From assembly GCA_016200125.1 (NCBI GenBank), contig JACQFK010000067.1:1-12142 (forward strand): a stretch of DNA of 12,142 nucleotides. Reading direction: 5' to 3'. Source of the DNA: Planctomycetota bacterium. GTDB lineage: Bacteria > Planctomycetota > MHYJ01 > JACPRB01. Every line of letters starts with the position of its first letter. The stretch's first letter is position 1. A program made the position numbers and the translations under genes. Below the pieces are notes generated by a model. The model worked only from the letters and a program-made list of their open reading frames with translations, did not search any database and had not been told where the DNA came from. Positions 896-12,142 of this stretch are shown in pieces.

Positions 896-929
896 AAAAA
901 CCCCGCGCGGAAGCTCGTTCCGCGCGGGG
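896..929 (-). terminator. Rho-independent terminator of the peroxidase gene
   Basis: A perfect 12-bp inverted repeat (901-912 with 918-929, arm CCCCGCGCGGAA, 5-nt loop) is followed on the minus strand by five T residues (900-896). It starts 7 bp after the peroxidase stop codon. Stem, loop and T-tract all fit an intrinsic terminator acting on the minus strand. Confidence 0.92.
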
Positions 930-936
930 TATCGGG

Positions 937-1509
937 TTACTTTTTCAGCGCCGCGTCGATGTCGGCGCGCAGGGTCGCGTCCTCGGGCTTCACTCCGCCC
1001 TTGTAGAACTTCACGACCTTGCCGTCCTTGCCGACCAGGTACTTGCAGAAGTTCCAGCTCGGAGTCTCCTTGGATTGGGCGATGAGGTTGGCGTAGACCG
1101 GACAGGCCTCTTTGCCCTTGACGGGGACCTTGTCGAACATCGGGAAGGTCACCTTGTATTTGCTCGTGCAGAACTGGTGGATTTCGGCGGCGCTGCCGGG
1201 TTCCTGGTTGCCGAAATCATTGGAGGGGAAGCCGAGAATCGCGAATCCCTTGTCCTTCAGCTCCTCGTACATTTTCTCCAGACCGGAGTATTGAGGAGTC
1301 TGCCCTCACTGGCTGGCGAGGTTGACGACGAGAGTCACCTTCCCGGCGAAGTCCTTGAGGTCGACCTCCGCGCCTTCGAGGGATTTGGCCTTCAGCTTGT
1401 AGAGCGAATCAGCGGGCAAGACGGGCTCCTTTTTCTTCTTGTCCTGGGCGCCGGCCGGGAGGGCCAGGGCGACCGACAGGGCCGCAACCGACAGCCATAG
1501 ACGTCGCAT
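937..1509 (-). CDS. Secreted glutathione peroxidase, selenoprotein with in-frame UGA as Sec68
   Basis: The 190-residue thioredoxin-fold peroxidase is read through one in-frame TGA (1306-1308). Before it comes LVVNLASQ and after it GQTPQYSGLEKMYEELKDKGFAILGFP, so the TGA falls exactly where glutathione peroxidases have their catalytic Sec or Cys. The frame is otherwise intact, ending in TAA at 937-939. Trp152-Asn153 (SWNF) are the usual catalytic partners. The Gln of the tetrad is Asp98 in FPSNDFG, a departure seen at that motif. Cys114 (HQFCTSKY) sits where thioredoxin-dependent family members carry the resolving Cys. Residues 1-22 (MRRLWLSVAALSVALALPAGAQ) form a Sec signal peptide followed by a DKKKK linker, so the enzyme should act in the periplasm or outside, reducing hydrogen peroxide or lipid hydroperoxides. 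It has its own promoter, a strong ribosome binding site and a terminator, so it is a single-gene unit. An annotation pipeline would probably split it into two pieces or call it a pseudogene. The alternative is a nonsense mutation, which is unlikely at this exact codon. Confidence 0.9.
1276..1288 (-). promoter_or_regulatory. Candidate bacterial SECIS hairpin downstream of the Sec UGA
   Basis: On the coding (minus) strand CTCC, loop GGTCT and GGAG form a 4-bp stem with a 5-nt loop beginning with GG. The loop starts 22 nt after the UGA. Bacterial SECIS elements are known to be short hairpins within the coding region soon after the UGA, with a G at the start of the apical loop, so position and loop fit. 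The stem is short, and competing pairings exist, for example CAGAC just after the UGA with GTCTG, or TGAGG with CCTCA. The call is therefore tentative. Confidence 0.45.
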
Positions 1510-1515
1510 GGGGTT

Positions 1516-1521
1516 CCTCCT
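1516..1521 (-). promoter_or_regulatory. Strong ribosome binding site of the peroxidase gene
   Basis: On the minus strand AGGAGG lies 6 nt before the ATG at 1507-1509. It fixes the start so that the Sec signal peptide is included. Confidence 0.85.
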
Positions 1522-1619: not shown

Positions 1620-3299
1620 ATGCGAGCCCTGCACCTGTTGCTCCTGCTGGGGGCGGCGGCGGGACCCCAGGATCCGCCGTCCTTCGACGCCGGATTCCGC
1701 GAACTGGCCGACACCAGCATCGGCGGCTGGAACCGGCGCCTCGGCCCCGATCACACGGCGGCTCCCGCCGGCGAGCGGAAGAAGCCGCCCCTCCTCTACC
1801 AGCCGACGTCGAAGCCCTGCCCCTTCGCCCGCAACAACGGAGGCATGACCTACGAGATCGGCGGACCGCCCGTGAAGGAGGCCGGCGACTTCAGCAGCAC
1901 CCAGGCTCAGGTCCTGTACGCGACGGAGGGCGGCGCCGGCGTCGACCGCGTCCTCCTCCTCGACATGCAGAACAAGTGCTTCAGCGAGAAGCCGGAGCCC
2001 CCCTGGTGGGGCGGATTCCGGCCCGAACCGGCAACGGCGGAGTGGCGCAAGAAGGGGGCGGCGCCCGGCGGCCCGGTGGGGATCGCCCGCGGCCTCGGCA
2101 CCTGGTCCAACCACGCGATCCTCGTCTTCCGGAACGGGCTCGTGGCCACCGCGGGCACCGCCACCTCGCAAGGGACCCACCCGGTCCTCCAGCTCCCGCC
2201 CGAGAAAGTCCCCACCGCGATGACCGTGACCCCGCGCAACGAGATGGCGCTCGTCACCGTGATCGACACGAAGCTGAGAAAGGCCCAGCTCGCCGTCCTC
2301 GCCCTGGAGAGCTTCGCCCCGAACTTCGCCCACGACTGGCATGACCGCTATCCGCTCCTGCCCAGCGTTGCGAGCTTCTCCGATATCAAGCTCCTCGGCT
2401 TCGTCGATCTGCCGATCCTGTTCCCCTCGGCCGTCAGCGGATCGGGGAACGAGACCGGCGGCTGGCTCCACGGCGTGAACGGCCAGAACGCCCTGCCCAA
2501 GGACCTGGACCTGAACAAGCCGGAGGTCCGCGCGTCGTTCGTGAAGGGATCGAACGACCGCTGGGTCAGCACGGGCGGCAGCGCGGTGGTGATCTCGCGC
2601 GCCGAGGGCAAGGCGGTCTTCATCGATCTTCAGCCCCTCTTCTCCGGGATCAAGCAGGCCTATTTCGGGCCCGACTTCGCGAAGACGCGCGACCTCGGGC
2701 CCAAACCGAAGCAGTGGCCCTTCACGTTCGAGACGGAGCCCGCCTTGAAGCCCGCGGTCGTCGCGACGGTGGAGGTCCCGAAGCCCGTCAGCGTGCTGGT
2801 CCGCGCCACCGGGGGCGAGAACGCCCGCGCCTACATCGGCTGCCAGGAGGGCGAGATCGTGTCGTTCAGGTTCGGGGCCGAAGTCCGCGAAGCTTCCCGG
2901 CTTGCGGTCGGCAGGAATCCCGTCTGGATGGCGTCCAAGGGGCTTGCCGGCGGGGCGGACTTCGGGTTCATCGTCGTCAGCCGCGGCGACCGGGCGCTCC
3001 AGTGGGTCAGGTTCACCAAGGACCAGGGATCGATCGTGCGGGAGCTGCGGGACGAGCGCCTGATCGATCCCGTCTCCGCGGAGATCGCGGACACCCACGG
3101 GATCGAGACCCAGATCGTGACGGTGGCCGATTTCAAGGGGCGGAAGATCATCAACTACCGCTGCAGCCCCGTGGTGTTCGCGACCAACGGCGGCGCGAAG
3201 TTCGGCTGCGGCCCCAAGGGCGACGACGAGTTCGAGTGCGGCGGCGTCATGACCTTCCCGGGGAGCCCCCTCGCCGTCTGCGGCAGCAACGTGAACTGA
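1620..3299 (+). CDS. Secreted protein of unknown function, possibly beta-propeller-like
   Basis: I do not recognise this 559-residue protein. It begins with a short hydrophobic signal peptide (MRALHLLLLLGAAAG, then PQDPP), which supports the ATG at 1620, although no Shine-Dalgarno site precedes it. The body has many short beta-strand-like stretches of the kind seen in propeller blades: TAMTVTPRNEMALVTVID near residues 199-216, GGSAVVISRAEGKAVFIDL near 320-338, then ARAYIGCQEGEIVSF and FGFIVVSRGDRALQWVRF further on. There are three early-to-middle Cys (SKPCPF, QNKCFS, IGCQEG) and four near the C-terminus (YRCSP, FGCGP, FECGG, AVCGS), suggesting disulfides outside the cytoplasm. No catalytic motif is evident. 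It is followed two bases later by the large double palindrome. A binding or structural role is possible, but the function is not known. Confidence 0.8.
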   Translation: MRALHLLLLLGAAAGPQDPPSFDAGFRELADTSIGGWNRRLGPDHTAAPAGERKKPPLLYQPTSKPCPFARNNGGMTYEIGGPPVKEAGDFSSTQAQVLYATEGGAGVDRVLLLDMQNKCFSEKPEPPWWGGFRPEPATAEWRKKGAAPGGPVGIARGLGTWSNHAILVFRNGLVATAGTATSQGTHPVLQLPPEKVPTAMTVTPRNEMALVTVIDTKLRKAQLAVLALESFAPNFAHDWHDRYPLLPSVASFSDIKLLGFVDLPILFPSAVSGSGNETGGWLHGVNGQNALPKDLDLNKPEVRASFVKGSNDRWVSTGGSAVVISRAEGKAVFIDLQPLFSGIKQAYFGPDFAKTRDLGPKPKQWPFTFETEPALKPAVVATVEVPKPVSVLVRATGGENARAYIGCQEGEIVSFRFGAEVREASRLAVGRNPVWMASKGLAGGADFGFIVVSRGDRALQWVRFTKDQGSIVRELRDERLIDPVSAEIADTHGIETQIVTVADFKGRKIINYRCSPVVFATNGGAKFGCGPKGDDEFECGGVMTFPGSPLAVCGSNVN

Positions 3300-7278: not shown

Positions 7279-7364
7279 GTTCAATTTTCTAGATTCCGGT
7301 CGGCCGTTTGATAGACTTGCACTTCCCGCCGCACCCGTGCGCGGGCCGTTCGATGTTCTTCACA

Positions 7365-7373
7365 GGGAGGAGG
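7365..7373 (+). promoter_or_regulatory. Ribosome binding site deciding the beta-helix protein start
   Basis: GGGAGGAGG lies 5 nt before the ATG at 7379. It supports this start over the in-frame ATG-type codon 42 bp upstream at 7337, which has no such site and would put charged residues ahead of the signal peptide. Confidence 0.8.
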
Positions 7374-7378
7374 CACCC

Positions 7379-10300
7379 ATGACCATCCGCAGAATCACTA
7401 TCTTCGCGCTCCTGGTGCTGGCGTCCACGGCGGCCTCCGCGGCGCCCCTCCGGGCCCGCGAGTGGTTCGTCCGCGCCGGCTCCGAGGGCGGCGACGGCTC
7501 CCAGGCCAAGCCCTTCGCCGACCCCTGGATGCCTCTCGAGAAGTGCGAAGCCGGCGACGTCATCCACATCGCCGCGGGCAAATACTACGGCAAGCTCAAC
7601 CAGGCGGTCTGGAAGATCCCCTTCGACAACGTCCAGCTCATCGGCGGCTACGACCAGGACTTCAAGACGCGCGATCCCTGGACCAACCGCACGGAGCTGA
7701 AGTGGGACGAGAAGTCCAAGAACTGGCCCAACGCGGCCCGCCTGAGCGGCAACGGCACCGCCGGCTGCGTCGTCGACGGCATCGTCATCGACATGAAGGA
7801 CTCCTCCAGCTACACGGACGAGGCCAAGACCGGCCGGCGGGACAAGCCGATGCAGGGCGAGAACGCCATCGACTTCAACCGGCCGGCGACCGTGCGCAAC
7901 TGCGTGATCATCAATCCGGACGGCTACGCCATCAACGTCCCGGCCGGTTCCACCGTCGAGAACAACCTGGTCGTCAACGCCCTGATCTTCGGCGTGGCGA
8001 TCTACACGGGCGGCGACGCGCCGGCCCTGATCCGGAACAACACGCTCCTCTTCGGCTGGGGCTTCAAGGTGCCCGGCAAGGGCGCCTACGACGGGGCCCT
8101 CATCAAGGTCAACGGCCCGGTGAACATCACCAACAACCTCATCGCCCACAGCGACAGCAACTCGATCTATCAGACCATCAAGACCGAGAAGGTGTCGCTC
8201 ACCAAGAACGTCTTCTTCGCGAACATGTTCTCGAACCTGAAATGCTACGTCGACAACAAGGACATCCCCATCGACGACAAGAACATGGGCGACCTCGAGG
8301 AGCTCGGCCTCAAGGCCTTCGAAGGCAACGAGGTGATGAATCCCGGGCTGGACCTCGACCCCGCCTGGCTGGACCTGTATTCGAAGCGGACGGCCTACCA
8401 GCCCGGCAAGGTCACGATGGACGACATGAACAACCTCCGCAAGCTGATGGGCCTGCCGGTCATCGCCAAGGGCGGCACCCCGGCCCTCGGCGTCGCTCCG
8501 GCCTACGACCTGGACAAGGCCATCGCCCTCATGACCCCCAAGAACGACAAGTGCAAGGCGGGCGCGCGGAAGATCAAGCTGGAGTCCAGGATCACGGGAG
8601 GCTCCGGCGCCGCGGGCCCGGCCAAGGAATACGCGAAGGCCGAGCTGGCCGACTTCATCCAGGCCCCCGCCGCGCTGAACGGCAAGGCCGTGGAGATGCT
8701 CGTCGGCATGGGCGAGGTCGCCAACCTCGGCCCGGCCCCCGCCAGCTACGCCAAGGACAAGATCACCGCCTACAAGCTCTGGGACAAGGAGGGCAGCGGG
8801 AAGTGGACCACCGGCTTCATGATGAAGGGGACGACCCCGGAGCGCATCTGTCAGGACGGCCACATGTCCTACCGGGGCGGCGGGAAGCCGGAGACGCTCT
8901 ACGTCGTCAAGGGCATCGCCTACGAGTCCACGGGCTTCCCCAAGCACGCCTTCTTCATCGAGTCGATGGAGAAGTATGACCCCTCGACCGCGCCCGCGGC
9001 CGCCCGCCCCAAGGGCCGCGACTGGTTCATCGTCATGGGCGCCGCCGGCGGCGACGGGACGAAGGAGAAGCCCTTCAAGGATCCCTGGCAGGCCCTCGAG
9101 AAATGCGAGAGCGGAGACTCGATCCACGTGGCCGAAGGCGAGTACTACGGCAAGCTCAAGATCGGCATCTGGAAGATCGACACGACCTACATCAGCCTGA
9201 TCGGCGGCTACAACAAGGAGTTCACGGAGCGCAACCCCTGGACCCACCCGACCCTGCTCTTCTGCCCCCCCGAGTACAAAGGGACGATGCGCGGCGGGTA
9301 CCAGATCGACGGCGAGGCCGACCACACCGGCACGGTGATCGACGGCTTCGTCTTCGACAAGCGGACCAACAACAAGTACCAGGCCAACGGCGACATCGAC
9401 CGCGACCGCTCCGACGCCCGCGAGCACATCTCGCTCGCCTACCCCGGGGTGGTCATCCGCAACAACGTGTTCCTGAACGGCAATGGCGGCGCCCTGCGGA
9501 TCTGCAACGGCGCGACGATCGAGAACAACATCTTCATCAACCACATGACGAAGACGATCAACCAGACCAACGGGTTCACGCCGACCCCCTCCATCATCCG
9601 CAACAACACCCTGATGTTCTCCTGGGAGCTCAAGTTCGGCGTGGGCCAGGGCCGGAACGGCCACCTGATCTACTTCTGGTCGGACTGCCGGTCCATCGTC
9701 GACAACAACATCATCGAGTTCGCCGACAACGACGGCGTCGTGCTCTCCCTCGATCCGGCCGAGATCGTCTTCACGAACAACGTCTTCTCGCACAACCTCT
9801 GGTCGCACGTGAGAAGGTCCGCGACGCCCAACCTGGTGGTTGACGGGTCGAATTTCAAGCAACTCGGGGATCTCGGCTTCAAGAAGGCCGAGGGAAACCT
9901 GATCCTCCCCGAAGGGTCGGGCTGCCCGGTGGACGAGAAGTTCTTCAACGCCTACCTGAGCCGCACGGCTTACGTGCCGGGCAAAGTCACGATGGACGAA
10001 TGGAACCAGCTGCGCGAGATGCTCGGCCAGCCGGTGCTGGCCACCGGGGGCAAGGCCCCCGAGGGCTTCATGCCCCTCTATCCCTGGAAGAGCGCGATCA
10101 ACCTGTTCCCCAAGAACCCCAAGTGCAAGGCCGGCGCCCGGCAGGTCCCCCTGCCCGTGAAGTTCGAGGGCATCGAGCGCAAGGAGGAGATCTTCGAGTA
10201 CGCGGAATCCAGCTGGGACGCCGCAAAGACCCGCGAGAGCTGGGAGAAGCTGGACAAGAAGCGCGTCTCGCTGAAGGTCACGGTACGTCCCCCGGACAAT

Positions 10301-10543
10301 CAGTACCAGCTTGACGACATCACGAAGGAGACCTACCAGGCCTTCAAGGTGCAGGGGCCCGAAGGGATCGACAGCGGCGGCCTCCCGATGTTCTGCTACG
10401 TCAAGAAGGGCACCCGCCACGAACGGGTCATGAGGAACGCGAAGGACTTCGGGAACGGGAAGCCCGAGGAGACCTACATCATCAAGGGCATCGCCCGTCA
10501 GAACCGCACCATGGTCGTGGAAGTGATCGAGCGGGCGGACTAG
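7379..10543 (+). CDS. Exported tandem-duplicated right-handed beta-helix protein (DUF1565-like)
   Basis: This 1054-residue protein has a Sec signal peptide (MTIRRITIFALLVLASTAASA). It then contains two copies of a unit of about 520 residues, starting at Arg27 (REWFVRAG) and Arg547 (RDWFIVMG). Each unit has four parts: a DUF1565-like entry (GGDGS..KPF.DPW..LEKCE.GD.IH.A.G.YYGKL, then LIGGY); a parallel beta-helix with repeated N-N turns such as VENNLVVN, LIRNNTLLF, ITNNLIA and IIRNNTLMF; a conserved linker (TAYVPGKVTMD, then KCKAGAR); and a final beta-rich module of about 110 residues ending in ETLYVVKGIAYES or EETYIIKGIARQN. Beta-helix proteins of this kind bind or cleave polysaccharides, but I see no lyase or hydrolase active site, so binding or surface structure is as likely. 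The gene has a strong ribosome binding site and its own terminator. The copies are well diverged, so the duplication is not recent. Confidence 0.88.
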   Translation: MTIRRITIFALLVLASTAASAAPLRAREWFVRAGSEGGDGSQAKPFADPWMPLEKCEAGDVIHIAAGKYYGKLNQAVWKIPFDNVQLIGGYDQDFKTRDPWTNRTELKWDEKSKNWPNAARLSGNGTAGCVVDGIVIDMKDSSSYTDEAKTGRRDKPMQGENAIDFNRPATVRNCVIINPDGYAINVPAGSTVENNLVVNALIFGVAIYTGGDAPALIRNNTLLFGWGFKVPGKGAYDGALIKVNGPVNITNNLIAHSDSNSIYQTIKTEKVSLTKNVFFANMFSNLKCYVDNKDIPIDDKNMGDLEELGLKAFEGNEVMNPGLDLDPAWLDLYSKRTAYQPGKVTMDDMNNLRKLMGLPVIAKGGTPALGVAPAYDLDKAIALMTPKNDKCKAGARKIKLESRITGGSGAAGPAKEYAKAELADFIQAPAALNGKAVEMLVGMGEVANLGPAPASYAKDKITAYKLWDKEGSGKWTTGFMMKGTTPERICQDGHMSYRGGGKPETLYVVKGIAYESTGFPKHAFFIESMEKYDPSTAPAAARPKGRDWFIVMGAAGGDGTKEKPFKDPWQALEKCESGDSIHVAEGEYYGKLKIGIWKIDTTYISLIGGYNKEFTERNPWTHPTLLFCPPEYKGTMRGGYQIDGEADHTGTVIDGFVFDKRTNNKYQANGDIDRDRSDAREHISLAYPGVVIRNNVFLNGNGGALRICNGATIENNIFINHMTKTINQTNGFTPTPSIIRNNTLMFSWELKFGVGQGRNGHLIYFWSDCRSIVDNNIIEFADNDGVVLSLDPAEIVFTNNVFSHNLWSHVRRSATPNLVVDGSNFKQLGDLGFKKAEGNLILPEGSGCPVDEKFFNAYLSRTAYVPGKVTMDEWNQLREMLGQPVLATGGKAPEGFMPLYPWKSAINLFPKNPKCKAGARQVPLPVKFEGIERKEEIFEYAESSWDAAKTRESWEKLDKKRVSLKVTVRPPDNQYQLDDITKETYQAFKVQGPEGIDSGGLPMFCYVKKGTRHERVMRNAKDFGNGKPEETYIIKGIARQNRTMVVEVIERAD

Positions 10544-10599: not shown

Positions 10600-11055
10600 T
10601 CAGGAGGCCCGGGCGAGTCCTTCGACCGGGTCAACCGTGGCCTCCACTTCGACGGGCGTCTTGAGCGCGTTGGAGACGATGCAGTACTTCTTCGCGGTCT
10701 CAATCAGCCGCCGCGCCTCGTCCAGCCGCGACGCCGGCGCGAAGATCGCAATCCGGAGGGTGATGCGCGTGAACCGGATCCCCTCCCGGGTCTTCTCCAG
10801 GAGCCCATCCGCCCGGCTCCGGTAGCCGCCGATCTCCAGGCCTGCCTTTTTCGCCAGAGCCTGGTAGGTCGTCATCAGGCAGAGGTTGGCCGCGGAGAGG
10901 AGCAGATGCTCCGGGCTCCACCAGCCCGGCTCGCCGTCGAACTCCGGCGGAGGGCCTCCGACGAGGACGGGGCGCGATCCCGATGAGAGCGCCGCGCGGG
11001 AGCCGCCCTCCCAGGACAGCGTCGCCTCATAGCGGTGGGGAAAAGGCTGGGTCAT
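10600..11055 (-). CDS. OsmC family protein (thiol peroxidase-like)
   Basis: This 151-residue cytoplasmic protein fits the OsmC/Ohr family. The beta-strand start (HRYEATLSWEGGSRAALSSG) is followed by SPEHLLLSAANLCLMTTYQALAKKAG with the peroxidatic Cys59. The second conserved Cys, Cys125, lies in AKKYCIVSNAL. The Cys pair is the one used by the family to reduce organic hydroperoxides with thiol donors. The sequence looks more like the general OsmC/YhfA branch than Ohr. A frame extending further upstream exists, but the ATG at 11053-11055 has an AGGAG site about 8 nt upstream and gives the normal family length. The AGGAG overlaps the stop codon of the DUF302 gene, and the genes are 11 bp apart, so they form an operon and may be translationally coupled. 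Confidence 0.9.
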   Translation of the reverse strand: MTQPFPHRYEATLSWEGGSRAALSSGSRPVLVGGPPPEFDGEPGWWSPEHLLLSAANLCLMTTYQALAKKAGLEIGGYRSRADGLLEKTREGIRFTRITLRIAIFAPASRLDEARRLIETAKKYCIVSNALKTPVEVEATVDPVEGLARAS

Positions 11056-11066
11056 GGTTCGTTCTC

Positions 11067-11537
11067 CTAACGGGCGGCCTCGTTCATGATCCCGACGATC
11101 GTCTCCTCCACCTCGCCCGCCGCCTTCTGGAGCTCCGGGGTGCCGAAGAGGTCGACCAGCTTCCCGGGCCGGATCGTCGACAGCCGGGTCTTCCCGTCCT
11201 TTCCCCGGTAGGCGGAGATCCGGCAGGGCAGCGCGGTGGAGATCTCGGGGGAGGCCTCGAGGACCTGCTTCGCCTTCTGGGGATTGCAGACTTCGAAGAT
11301 GAGGCATTCGCCGGCGTATTCGACGCCCTTCTCCTTCATCTTCTCCTTGAGGTCGATCACCGACAGGACCCCGAACTTGCGGGCCGCGCAGGCCTTCGGG
11401 AGATCCTCCCGGAGCCGGGCCAGGGTCTTCTCCGTTTCGACGGTATAGAGCATGGCGTTTTCTCCGACGGGACGCTGGGGGGGGCGGTCCTGCGCCGACA
11501 GCGCCGCCGCCAGAACGATCAGGATGCGAGTCTGCAT
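11067..11537 (-). CDS. Exported DUF302 family protein
   Basis: The 156-residue protein starts with a signal peptide (MQTRILIVLAAALSAQ). It then shows the DUF302 layout: a leading strand and helix (YTVETEKTLARLREDLPKACAARKFGVLSVIDLKEKMKEKG), a strand-turn-helix (CLIFEVCNPQKAKQVLEASPEISTALPCRISAYR), and a C-terminal helix (ELQKAAGEVEETIVGIMNEAAR). DUF302 proteins are small alpha-beta proteins of unknown biochemistry, often found near redox or sulfur genes. Four Cys are visible (KACAA, ECLIF, EVCNP, LPCRI), of possible interest for redox or metal binding. A GGGAGG ribosome binding site (11548-11543) lies 5 nt before the ATG at 11535-11537; a longer open frame upstream lacks support. It is the first gene of the pair with OsmC. 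Confidence 0.83.
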   Translation of the reverse strand: MQTRILIVLAAALSAQDRPPQRPVGENAMLYTVETEKTLARLREDLPKACAARKFGVLSVIDLKEKMKEKGVEYAGECLIFEVCNPQKAKQVLEASPEISTALPCRISAYRGKDGKTRLSTIRPGKLVDLFGTPELQKAAGEVEETIVGIMNEAAR

Positions 11538-11585
11538 GAGGACCTCCCTTGTCCGTCTGTTCCATTGATCCGGCAATCCGCCGGA

Positions 11586-11632
11586 GTTACAGGGATTCGG
11601 TATTCCGTCCCGACCCCCGGAAAGCCTGTAAC
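11586..11632. repeat. Separated inverted repeat in the divergent promoter region
   Basis: GTTACAGG (11586-11593) and CCTGTAAC (11625-11632) are perfect 8-bp inverted copies 31 bp apart, located between the divergent DUF302 and ECF sigma genes. They could be two half-sites of a regulator that loops or binds on the same helix face. With arms this short, chance cannot be excluded. I found no convincing promoter hexamers for the DUF302 side here. Confidence 0.35.
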
Positions 11633-11657
11633 CCGGCGCCCCTCCACGGATCACGGC

Positions 11658-11686
11658 TTGCGCCGTCTGCGCTTCCGCCGTAGAGT
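11658..11686 (+). promoter_or_regulatory. Candidate promoter of the right-hand ECF sigma gene
   Basis: TTGCGC (11658-11663) and TAGAGT (11681-11686) are spaced by 17 bp, a partial match to the sigma70 consensus. The predicted start near 11693 lies within a perfect 14-bp palindrome, TGGGAAGCTTCCCA (11686-11699), which may be an operator. Confidence 0.4.
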
Positions 11687-11699
11687 GGGAAGCTTCCCA
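11686..11699. promoter_or_regulatory. Perfect 14-bp palindrome before the ECF sigma start
   Basis: TGGGAAGCTTCCCA equals its reverse complement. It begins at the end of the candidate -10 and runs up to the AAGGAG ribosome binding site, a place where a bound repressor could block initiation or an RNA hairpin could mask the ribosome binding site. Confidence 0.35.
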
Positions 11700-11708
11700 A
11701 GGAGAGCG

Positions 11709-12142
11709 ATGGCCGGACAGCCCGACGAAGACGCCGATCTGGTGAGGCAGGCGAAAGCCGGGGAGTATGCGGCCTTCGAAGCCCTGGTGTCGAAGTACGA
11801 ACGCCCGATCTACACCCTCGCCCGGCGCATCGCCGGACGCGCCGAGGACGCCGAGGACGTGGTCCAGGAGACCTTCGCCAGCGTGGTGGAACACCTAGCG
11901 GACTTCCGCGGGGAAGCGGCCTTCCACACCTGGCTCTCGCGGATCGCGACGAACCACGCCTTGAAGGTCCTCCGCAAGCGGCGGGGGCTTCCGACCGTCC
12001 CTCTCGACGAGAACGGCAGCGCCGGCGGCCCCGCGCTTCCCCGGCCGGAATTCATCGCTCCCTGGGCGAAAGATCCGCTGGAGGCGGGCAAGGACCCGTC
12101 GGTCCGGGTCATGATCGACCAGGCCCTGGCCGAGCTGGACGA
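11709..12142 (+). CDS. ECF-type RNA polymerase sigma factor, C-terminus beyond window edge
   Basis: The first 144 codons are in the window and the frame stays open to the edge. Region 2 covers about residues 10-90: DLVRQAKAGEYAAFEALVSKY, the core-binding AEDAEDVVQETFASV, then FHTWLSRIATNHALKVLRKRRG, which contacts the -10 element. A linker with Pro and Gly follows, and region 4 begins with VRVMIDQALAELD. It is a standard group 4 sigma factor, different from the one at the left edge. Start is ATG at 11709 with AAGGAG 4 nt upstream. It is divergent from the DUF302-OsmC pair, sharing 171 bp of intergenic DNA, so it could regulate that pair. Its own control may involve an anti-sigma factor encoded to the right, which is not seen. 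Confidence 0.92.
   Translation, partial: MAGQPDEDADLVRQAKAGEYAAFEALVSKYERPIYTLARRIAGRAEDAEDVVQETFASVVEHLADFRGEAAFHTWLSRIATNHALKVLRKRRGLPTVPLDENGSAGGPALPRPEFIAPWAKDPLEAGKDPSVRVMIDQALAELD

Follow-up and report, generated by a model that had tools for sequence, protein, structure and literature searches.

A predicted exported selenocysteine glutathione peroxidase of Planctomycetota, encoded across an in-frame UGA

The question which this locus raises is whether a glutathione peroxidase (GPx) gene that is interrupted by a single stop codon, at the point where the catalytic residue should be encoded, is a broken gene or instead the gene for a selenoprotein, i.e., one carrying selenocysteine (Sec), and, if the latter, whether that protein leaves the cytoplasm. 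By ‘window’ we mean here the whole 12,142-nt stretch of planctomycete DNA that was analysed.

The GPx frame and its single stop

The frame occupies positions 937..1509 of the minus strand, that is, 190 codons which run from an ATG at 1509-1507 to a TAA at 939-937. Its sole internal stop is a TGA, codon 68 (1306..1308, minus strand). An AGGAGG, likely the ribosome binding site, is read from the sequence 6 nt 5' of the ATG (1516..1521, minus strand). Found 3' of the stop codon is a hairpin resembling an intrinsic terminator (900..930, minus strand; 13 pairs and then a T run), though by count, i.e., one such hairpin versus a shuffle mean of 1.1, this is not above chance. The plus-strand reading of 937-1509 yields no GPx by eye.

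With the TGA read through, residues 36-142 match the profile PF00255 (GSHPx; E=2.8e-37), a match which spans profile positions 1-107 of 108 at 127 bits versus a cut-off of 27, and it is in the GPx family that sequence comparison places the protein. All 120 of the full-length homologues considered, taken as the best 120 of 7035 matches, have Cys at the column to which codon 68 aligns. The original prediction, that the only stop of this frame falls at the catalytic Sec/Cys codon, with LVVNLASQ before it and GQTPQY after, thus holds, both strings being exact. Seen separately within the family are a homologue with Arg at the catalytic Cys position (P0206; NTASERG) and a Cys GPx with two adjacent stops after WNF (L154, in genome G115).

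Gln102, Trp152 and Asn153 are invariant across 36 aligned rows, and Gln, Trp and Asn are what we take to be the partners of the catalytic residue in the GPx catalytic tetrad. Cys114 (EIHQFC; codon at 1168..1170, minus strand) is a candidate resolving Cys, a role which we presume by way of thioredoxin-type GPx, with the FC motif in the helix after QEPG. That motif is present in 19 of 22 C-terminal pieces of split genes (below) and in 117 of the 120 listed Cys relatives, and by this mark the window's GPx would be of the thioredoxin (2-Cys) type. Present as well, as U-G-Q-T, is the UxxT motif, which the available text of PMC13188914 gives for bacterial GPx-like selenoproteins.

The remainder of the window has features of its own. 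At 10600-11894 of the minus strand, an OsmC-like ORF overlaps one of DUF302 type that is read in a different frame, and as the OsmC domain lies at residues 216-308 of the listed ORF, the true start of that ORF is probably further in. On the plus strand, at 7337-10543, is a 1068-aa beta-helix protein, its two halves alike by eye, next to the genes of a GDSL-type hydrolase and an M1 peptidase.

A hairpin beyond the UGA, and the genes of Sec insertion

Lying wholly 3' of the UGA is a predicted bacterial SECIS hairpin (1258..1302, minus strand), with a minimum free energy (MFE) of -15.2 kcal/mol over 51 nt counted from the UGA. Its upper stem, CUCC/GGAG, and apical loop, GGUCU, are at 1276..1288 of the minus strand (loop 1284-1280), 21 nt after the UGA. 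Bacterial SECIS elements, as delimited in the available text of PMC13188914, have loops of 3-9 nt, upper stems of 4-16 bp, a G within the first two loop positions, a distance of 16-37 nt from the UGA and an MFE of -7.5 or lower, limits within which the window's hairpin fits (5 nt, 4 bp, GG, 21 nt and -15.2 kcal/mol, respectively); eukaryotic SECIS elements, per the same text, sit in the 3'-UTR. The Escherichia coli fdhF element has the identical GGTCT, starting at nt 19 versus nt 22 in the window.

Shuffling of the single sequence gives z-scores which are not significant, that is, -1.33 for the 51-nt fold, with 23 of 200 shuffles equally stable, and -0.06 for a 71-nt cut, while a 38-nt cut adopts another fold. 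The case for a SECIS is therefore built on comparison with relatives. Rfam gave nothing at gathering score, the only match over 1100-1500 being a weak one to the L31-leader model (E 1.4), and none was relevant.

One genome per species was scanned with a degenerate pattern that was built on the catalytic codon and required TGA there, yielding at least 120 loci, 119 of them credible. The other match (L045), with 8 residues between its TGA and the stop before it, is not a GPx and was left out of all counts. With T fixed at nt 26 and G barred at nt 25 by the scan pattern, and with nt 19-24 and 27 onward free, GGTCT is found at nt 22-26 in 97 of 119 TGA stretches, a set which counts the window and takes identical sequences once, versus 2 of 28 Cys genes. 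These Cys genes come from the top loci of the Planctomycetota search alone, and were held to the same T-W-Y (Tyr/Phe codon) at nt 16-18 as the pattern. An upper stem of at least four pairs is found in 108 of these 119 TGA stretches versus none of the 28 Cys genes. Stems are shorter than 4 bp in 11 of the 119 rows, with 8 of those being 1 bp; in the planctomycete TGA-GPx L010, no register that was tested gave a stem beyond 1 bp.

Where the stem changes, it does so in a coupled manner. Of the 102 hexaloop rows, 94 have G-C at pair 19-28 and 8 have A-T, with the residues coded at the hexaloop stem being Ala-Arg in 93 and Thr-Cys in 8, among all 119 rows. Nine rows are instead of the window's pentaloop type, with pair 19-29 being T-A in seven, G-C in one (L181) and unpaired in one (L010). 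It is RNA structure that best explains these coupled changes, seen as they are among related rows whose events are not independent. Ser-Glu at the stem-coding codons, as possessed by the window, is found in 7 of the 119 Sec rows, the window being one of the 7, versus 0 of the 28 Cys rows.

In 17 TGA-GPx genomes, selA and selB are over cut-off in all 17 and selD in 14, with tRNA-Sec at 64 bits or more in 15. Corresponding counts for 14 Cys-GPx planctomycete genomes are 12, 12 and 13, with strong tRNA-Sec in 13, and for control genomes, over cut-off, 1/14, 2/14, 2/14 and, for tRNA-Sec, 5/14. As Sec genes are about as common in Cys-GPx relatives, the machinery does not separate Sec from Cys forms. 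SelD in those genomes is itself probably a selenoprotein, because one in-frame TGA is present in 25 of 27 selD matches over cut-off. A total of 392 planctomycete genomes were searched, none from the window's own clade, and the M1 peptidase of the window points to G172 (70%) and G291 (69%, partial) as the nearest of these. G172 possesses selB along with selA, the latter as two contig-end pieces, and G291 possesses selB, selA not being found there; across the class of these two genomes selA is seen in 18 of 23 and selB in 15 of 23. At E 1e-10, no GPx was matched in either of these two genomes.

Split genes and the exchange of Sec and Cys

The 67-aa piece 5' of the UGA, used in a search which admitted lengths of about 37-117 aa only, matched 56 proteins among 57 candidates, one of them the window's own. 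The other 55 ‘stubs’, of 58-75 aa and read as protein, end in NLASQ (50), NLASK (3) or NLASR (2), such that in 55 of 55, all from other public sequence clusters, the end is the residue just before codon 68. For the 111-aa piece 3' of the UGA, the top 20 matches are likewise pieces, of 109-111 aa and with 74-86% identity, and these rank above P0002 (75%), the Cys relative that comes first among full-length proteins, in a listing of the best 120 of 3368 matches. Ten stub/piece pairs, each made up of entries whose contigs are equal in length, display 68-89% identity to the window before the UGA and 75-86% after, and P0002 75% before the catalytic column and 76% after. With the identities of the ten pairs similar on both sides, conservation of the frame is about equal before and after the UGA.

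In databases the two parts are kept under separate names, with 67-aa entries called ‘hypothetical protein’ (e.g., P0135, VNM14_24440, Planctomycetota bacterium) or ‘cytochrome oxidase Cu insertion factor’ and with separate 110-aa entries carrying the name ‘glutathione peroxidase’. The expectation that annotation would truncate such a gene is thus borne out for the window's clade. Less expected is that a whole clade with predicted export is stored as split genes, such that what would be a set of selenoproteins is found in public databases as paired, broken ORFs.

The TGA-GPx loci of the scan, at least 119, are from Acidimicrobiia, Gammaproteobacteria, Myxococcota, ‘Deltaproteobacteria’ and others, including Planctomycetota (9, by record title), Acidobacteria (2), Chloroflexi (1) and Clostridium (1); viral contigs gave 0 matches to the TGA pattern. 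Sec-GPx is common in bacteria, that is, commoner than was implied by the original prediction, which had bacterial GPxs as mostly Cys enzymes. Export is a minority trait among the 119 matches listed, with a signal-peptide-like start in 9, i.e., 7 of 9 Planctomycetota and 2 of 2 Acidobacteria. A tenth such flag, for L026, came from reading upstream of that gene's own likely start, and was dropped by eye. Two planctomycete loci, L066 and L090, are in genomes (G005 and G008) with a second GPx-like match, also with one in-frame TGA, at 31% and 36% to the window.

A 72-row tree was built with the catalytic residue masked and trait-linked neighbour residues left in, from rows including 10 of the 55 stubs, their Sec state inferred from the split, and 29 Cys homologues out of the 120 listed; left out were 15 rows (13 Sec) that were long or distant. 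Here the window belongs to a clade of 11 rows, all Sec (97/89), which contains nested groups of 10 rows (100/96) and 7 rows (98/98). An 87-row tree has the window's Sec clade (SH-aLRT 91) inside a 43-row set (96) along with 32 Cys enzymes. The predicted placement of the window is, that is, in an all-Sec clade nested among exported Cys enzymes. That the 17 Sec rows in the 72-row tree, a group named after a first tree was seen, arose only once is rejected (p-AU 0.0006), and the starred branches of that tree force at least five Sec/Cys changes. Both Cys and an in-frame TGA are found among relatives at the column of codon 68, the exchange that the original prediction had proposed to look for. Rooting is by midpoint, and the direction may be Cys to Sec or instead repeated Sec loss.

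Residues linked to the trait differ as well between the two forms, with NLAS in 55 of 55 Sec stubs versus NVAS in 118 of the 120 listed Cys relatives, and FPCN in 20 of 22 C-terminal pieces versus FPSN in all 120 of those relatives, the window having FPSN. Tandem Cys GPx pairs, their matched stretches about 120-200 bp apart, are found in genomes G237, G276 and G059 (L133, L134 and L135), with one copy in each grouping with the exported clade. A TAG in the exported-type copy of L133 was considered as a UAG-Sec codon and rejected, for it lies upstream, in DY*GKV, and the catalytic column is Cys; this TAG, in an otherwise intact Cys GPx, is error or decay.

One scenario, which we hold tentatively and view as possible rather than probable, is that an exported peroxidase lineage of Planctomycetota replaced Cys by Sec a single time and diversified thereafter, the SECIS having constrained part of what is encoded (YSGLE) and an active-site neighbour having changed (NLAS), so that Sec made in the cytoplasm is regularly used outside of it. 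If true, this would be a natural Cys-to-Sec gain in an extracytoplasmic antioxidant enzyme. These Sec and Cys relatives are useful for asking about the direction of Sec-Cys exchange, and, as the same exported enzyme in two forms among close relatives, for asking what it is that Sec buys outside of the cytoplasm.

Export, rival readings and known systems

Residues 1-21 (1447..1509, minus strand) are signal-peptide-like, by hydropathy and the AxA rule, with AGA before Q, the window's start reading MRRLWLSVAALSVALALPAGA and then QD. In the predicted structure, residues 1-25 have pLDDT below 50. A hydrophobic N-terminal segment is found in the window, in 55 of 55 stubs and in 119 of 120 listed Cys relatives, and an AxA-type site before Q, E or D in 54 of 55 and 106 of 120, respectively. 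The predicted secretion of the enzyme accordingly has behind it a conserved signal-peptide-like start, as called by a sequence heuristic. Tat signals carry S or T, then RRx, and then a hydrophobic residue. This strict motif is found in 0 of 55 stubs, with the expression used also letting N precede RR; RR within the first 12 residues is seen in 40 of 55 and the looser RRx-hydrophobic form in 33 of 55, the window having MRRLWL. As the strict motif is absent from all 55 stubs, the general secretory route is our first guess for the window's GPx.

That the enzyme is a Sec GPx which is not released, with its N-terminus a membrane anchor or its true start further in, strikes us as improbable. The heuristic nature of the export call would allow for it, and three TGA-GPxs of related genomes (L010, L031 and L136) start near the domain without a hydrophobic segment, but segment and AxA-type site are kept among stubs and Cys relatives as just described, and the AGGAGG stands before the window's own ATG. 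Very improbable, in turn, is that we are dealing with a pseudogene or with a sequencing or assembly error, that is, with a Cys codon mutated or miscalled to TGA and a 67-aa remnant. The window is one assembled contig, seen at assembly level only, TGC or TGT becomes TGA with a single base change, and Cys relatives exist at 74-75% identity. Against such an accident, however, the other stubs all stop at the same residue, the window clusters with Sec rows and not with its nearest Cys rows, SECIS loop and stem are present, with Ser-Glu stem codons that the Cys rows lack, and a frame of 190 codons, preceded by a likely ribosome binding site, contains but one internal stop.

One in-frame TGA by itself does not discriminate between Sec and a reassignment of TGA in the host, e.g., to Trp, by which an altered genetic code would hold the frame open. 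Neighbouring frames nevertheless end in TGA (DUF1801, 1620-3299, M1 peptidase, OsmC ORF), with the M1 Pfam domains reaching residue 851 of 872, and Trp is at the catalytic column in 0 of 120 listed homologues; an altered code also leaves the stem-loop unexplained. Given those TGA stops, and no Trp at the column, this explanation is rejected as scarcely conceivable.

We consider it very likely, by contrast with these rivals, that the window's gene encodes an exported Sec GPx of thioredoxin type, made by SelB-dependent readthrough of UGA 68. The assignment of Sec to position 68 draws on the SECIS hairpin, on the exchange of Sec and Cys among relatives, on conservation of the protein beyond the TGA and on the Sec genes of related genomes. 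What sequence comparison shows is the family, the Sec column, the SECIS, the clade and the conservation of the readthrough frame; insertion of Sec, export with its route, substrate and reductant are the inferred part. SelB, on the GGUCU-loop hairpin just after the UGA, would deliver Sec-tRNA-Sec to UGA 68, with the ribosome then continuing to the TAA, for 190 aa, rather than ending at 67 aa. The signal peptide would take the resulting Sec GPx out of the cytoplasm, and there Sec68, with Gln102, Trp152 and Asn153, would reduce hydroperoxides. The selenenic acid so formed would probably be resolved by Cys114, and recycling probably would be by an exported thioredoxin-like protein.

GPx-like selenoproteins with UxxT stand already in bacterial catalogues (PMC13188914, PMC9312934), and the GPx row of a table opens with a count of 1 in PMC1794560 (2006) and with a count of 40, for ocean samples, in PMC2398784. 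For planctomycetes, selenoproteins along with full Sec gene sets are reported in PMC4807772, whose supplementary selenoprotein table (two planctomycetes) may already hold a planctomycete Sec-GPx. No paper on an exported bacterial Sec-GPx was among the matches listed from open-licence literature, and ‘signal peptide’, ‘secreted’ and ‘periplasm’ are absent from PMC13188914.

Of known systems, WP_010957027.1 (PMC13188914) and Treponema denticola Gpx (PMC1794560) are like the window's GPx in having PF00255, UxxT and an in-frame UGA with a downstream SECIS; the window has in addition a signal-peptide-like N-terminus, a subject on which the available passages concerning those two are silent. Mammalian GPX4/GPX7 and poplar GPX5 structures are at 31-40% identity to the window's GPx. 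Much closer, at up to 75% identity, are P0002 and kin, i.e., exported-type Cys GPxs of Planctomycetota and metagenomes, which share with the window its length, signal-peptide-like start, candidate resolving Cys and most active-site surroundings, but which differ in having Cys at the catalytic column and NVAS where the window has NLAS (118/120); the 28 Cys loci read are without the SECIS stem. Seven planctomycete genes (L004, L056, L066, L068, L072, L090 and L093) combine, as does the window's, a signal-peptide-like N-terminus with a catalytic TGA, but with a different hairpin, CCTGC-AGTT-GCAGG by eye, whereas two exported-type TGA-GPxs of Acidobacteria (L105 and L120) share the window's CTCC-GGTCT-GGAG. 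Those exported-type TGA-GPxs that were put in the tree are on branches other than the window's.
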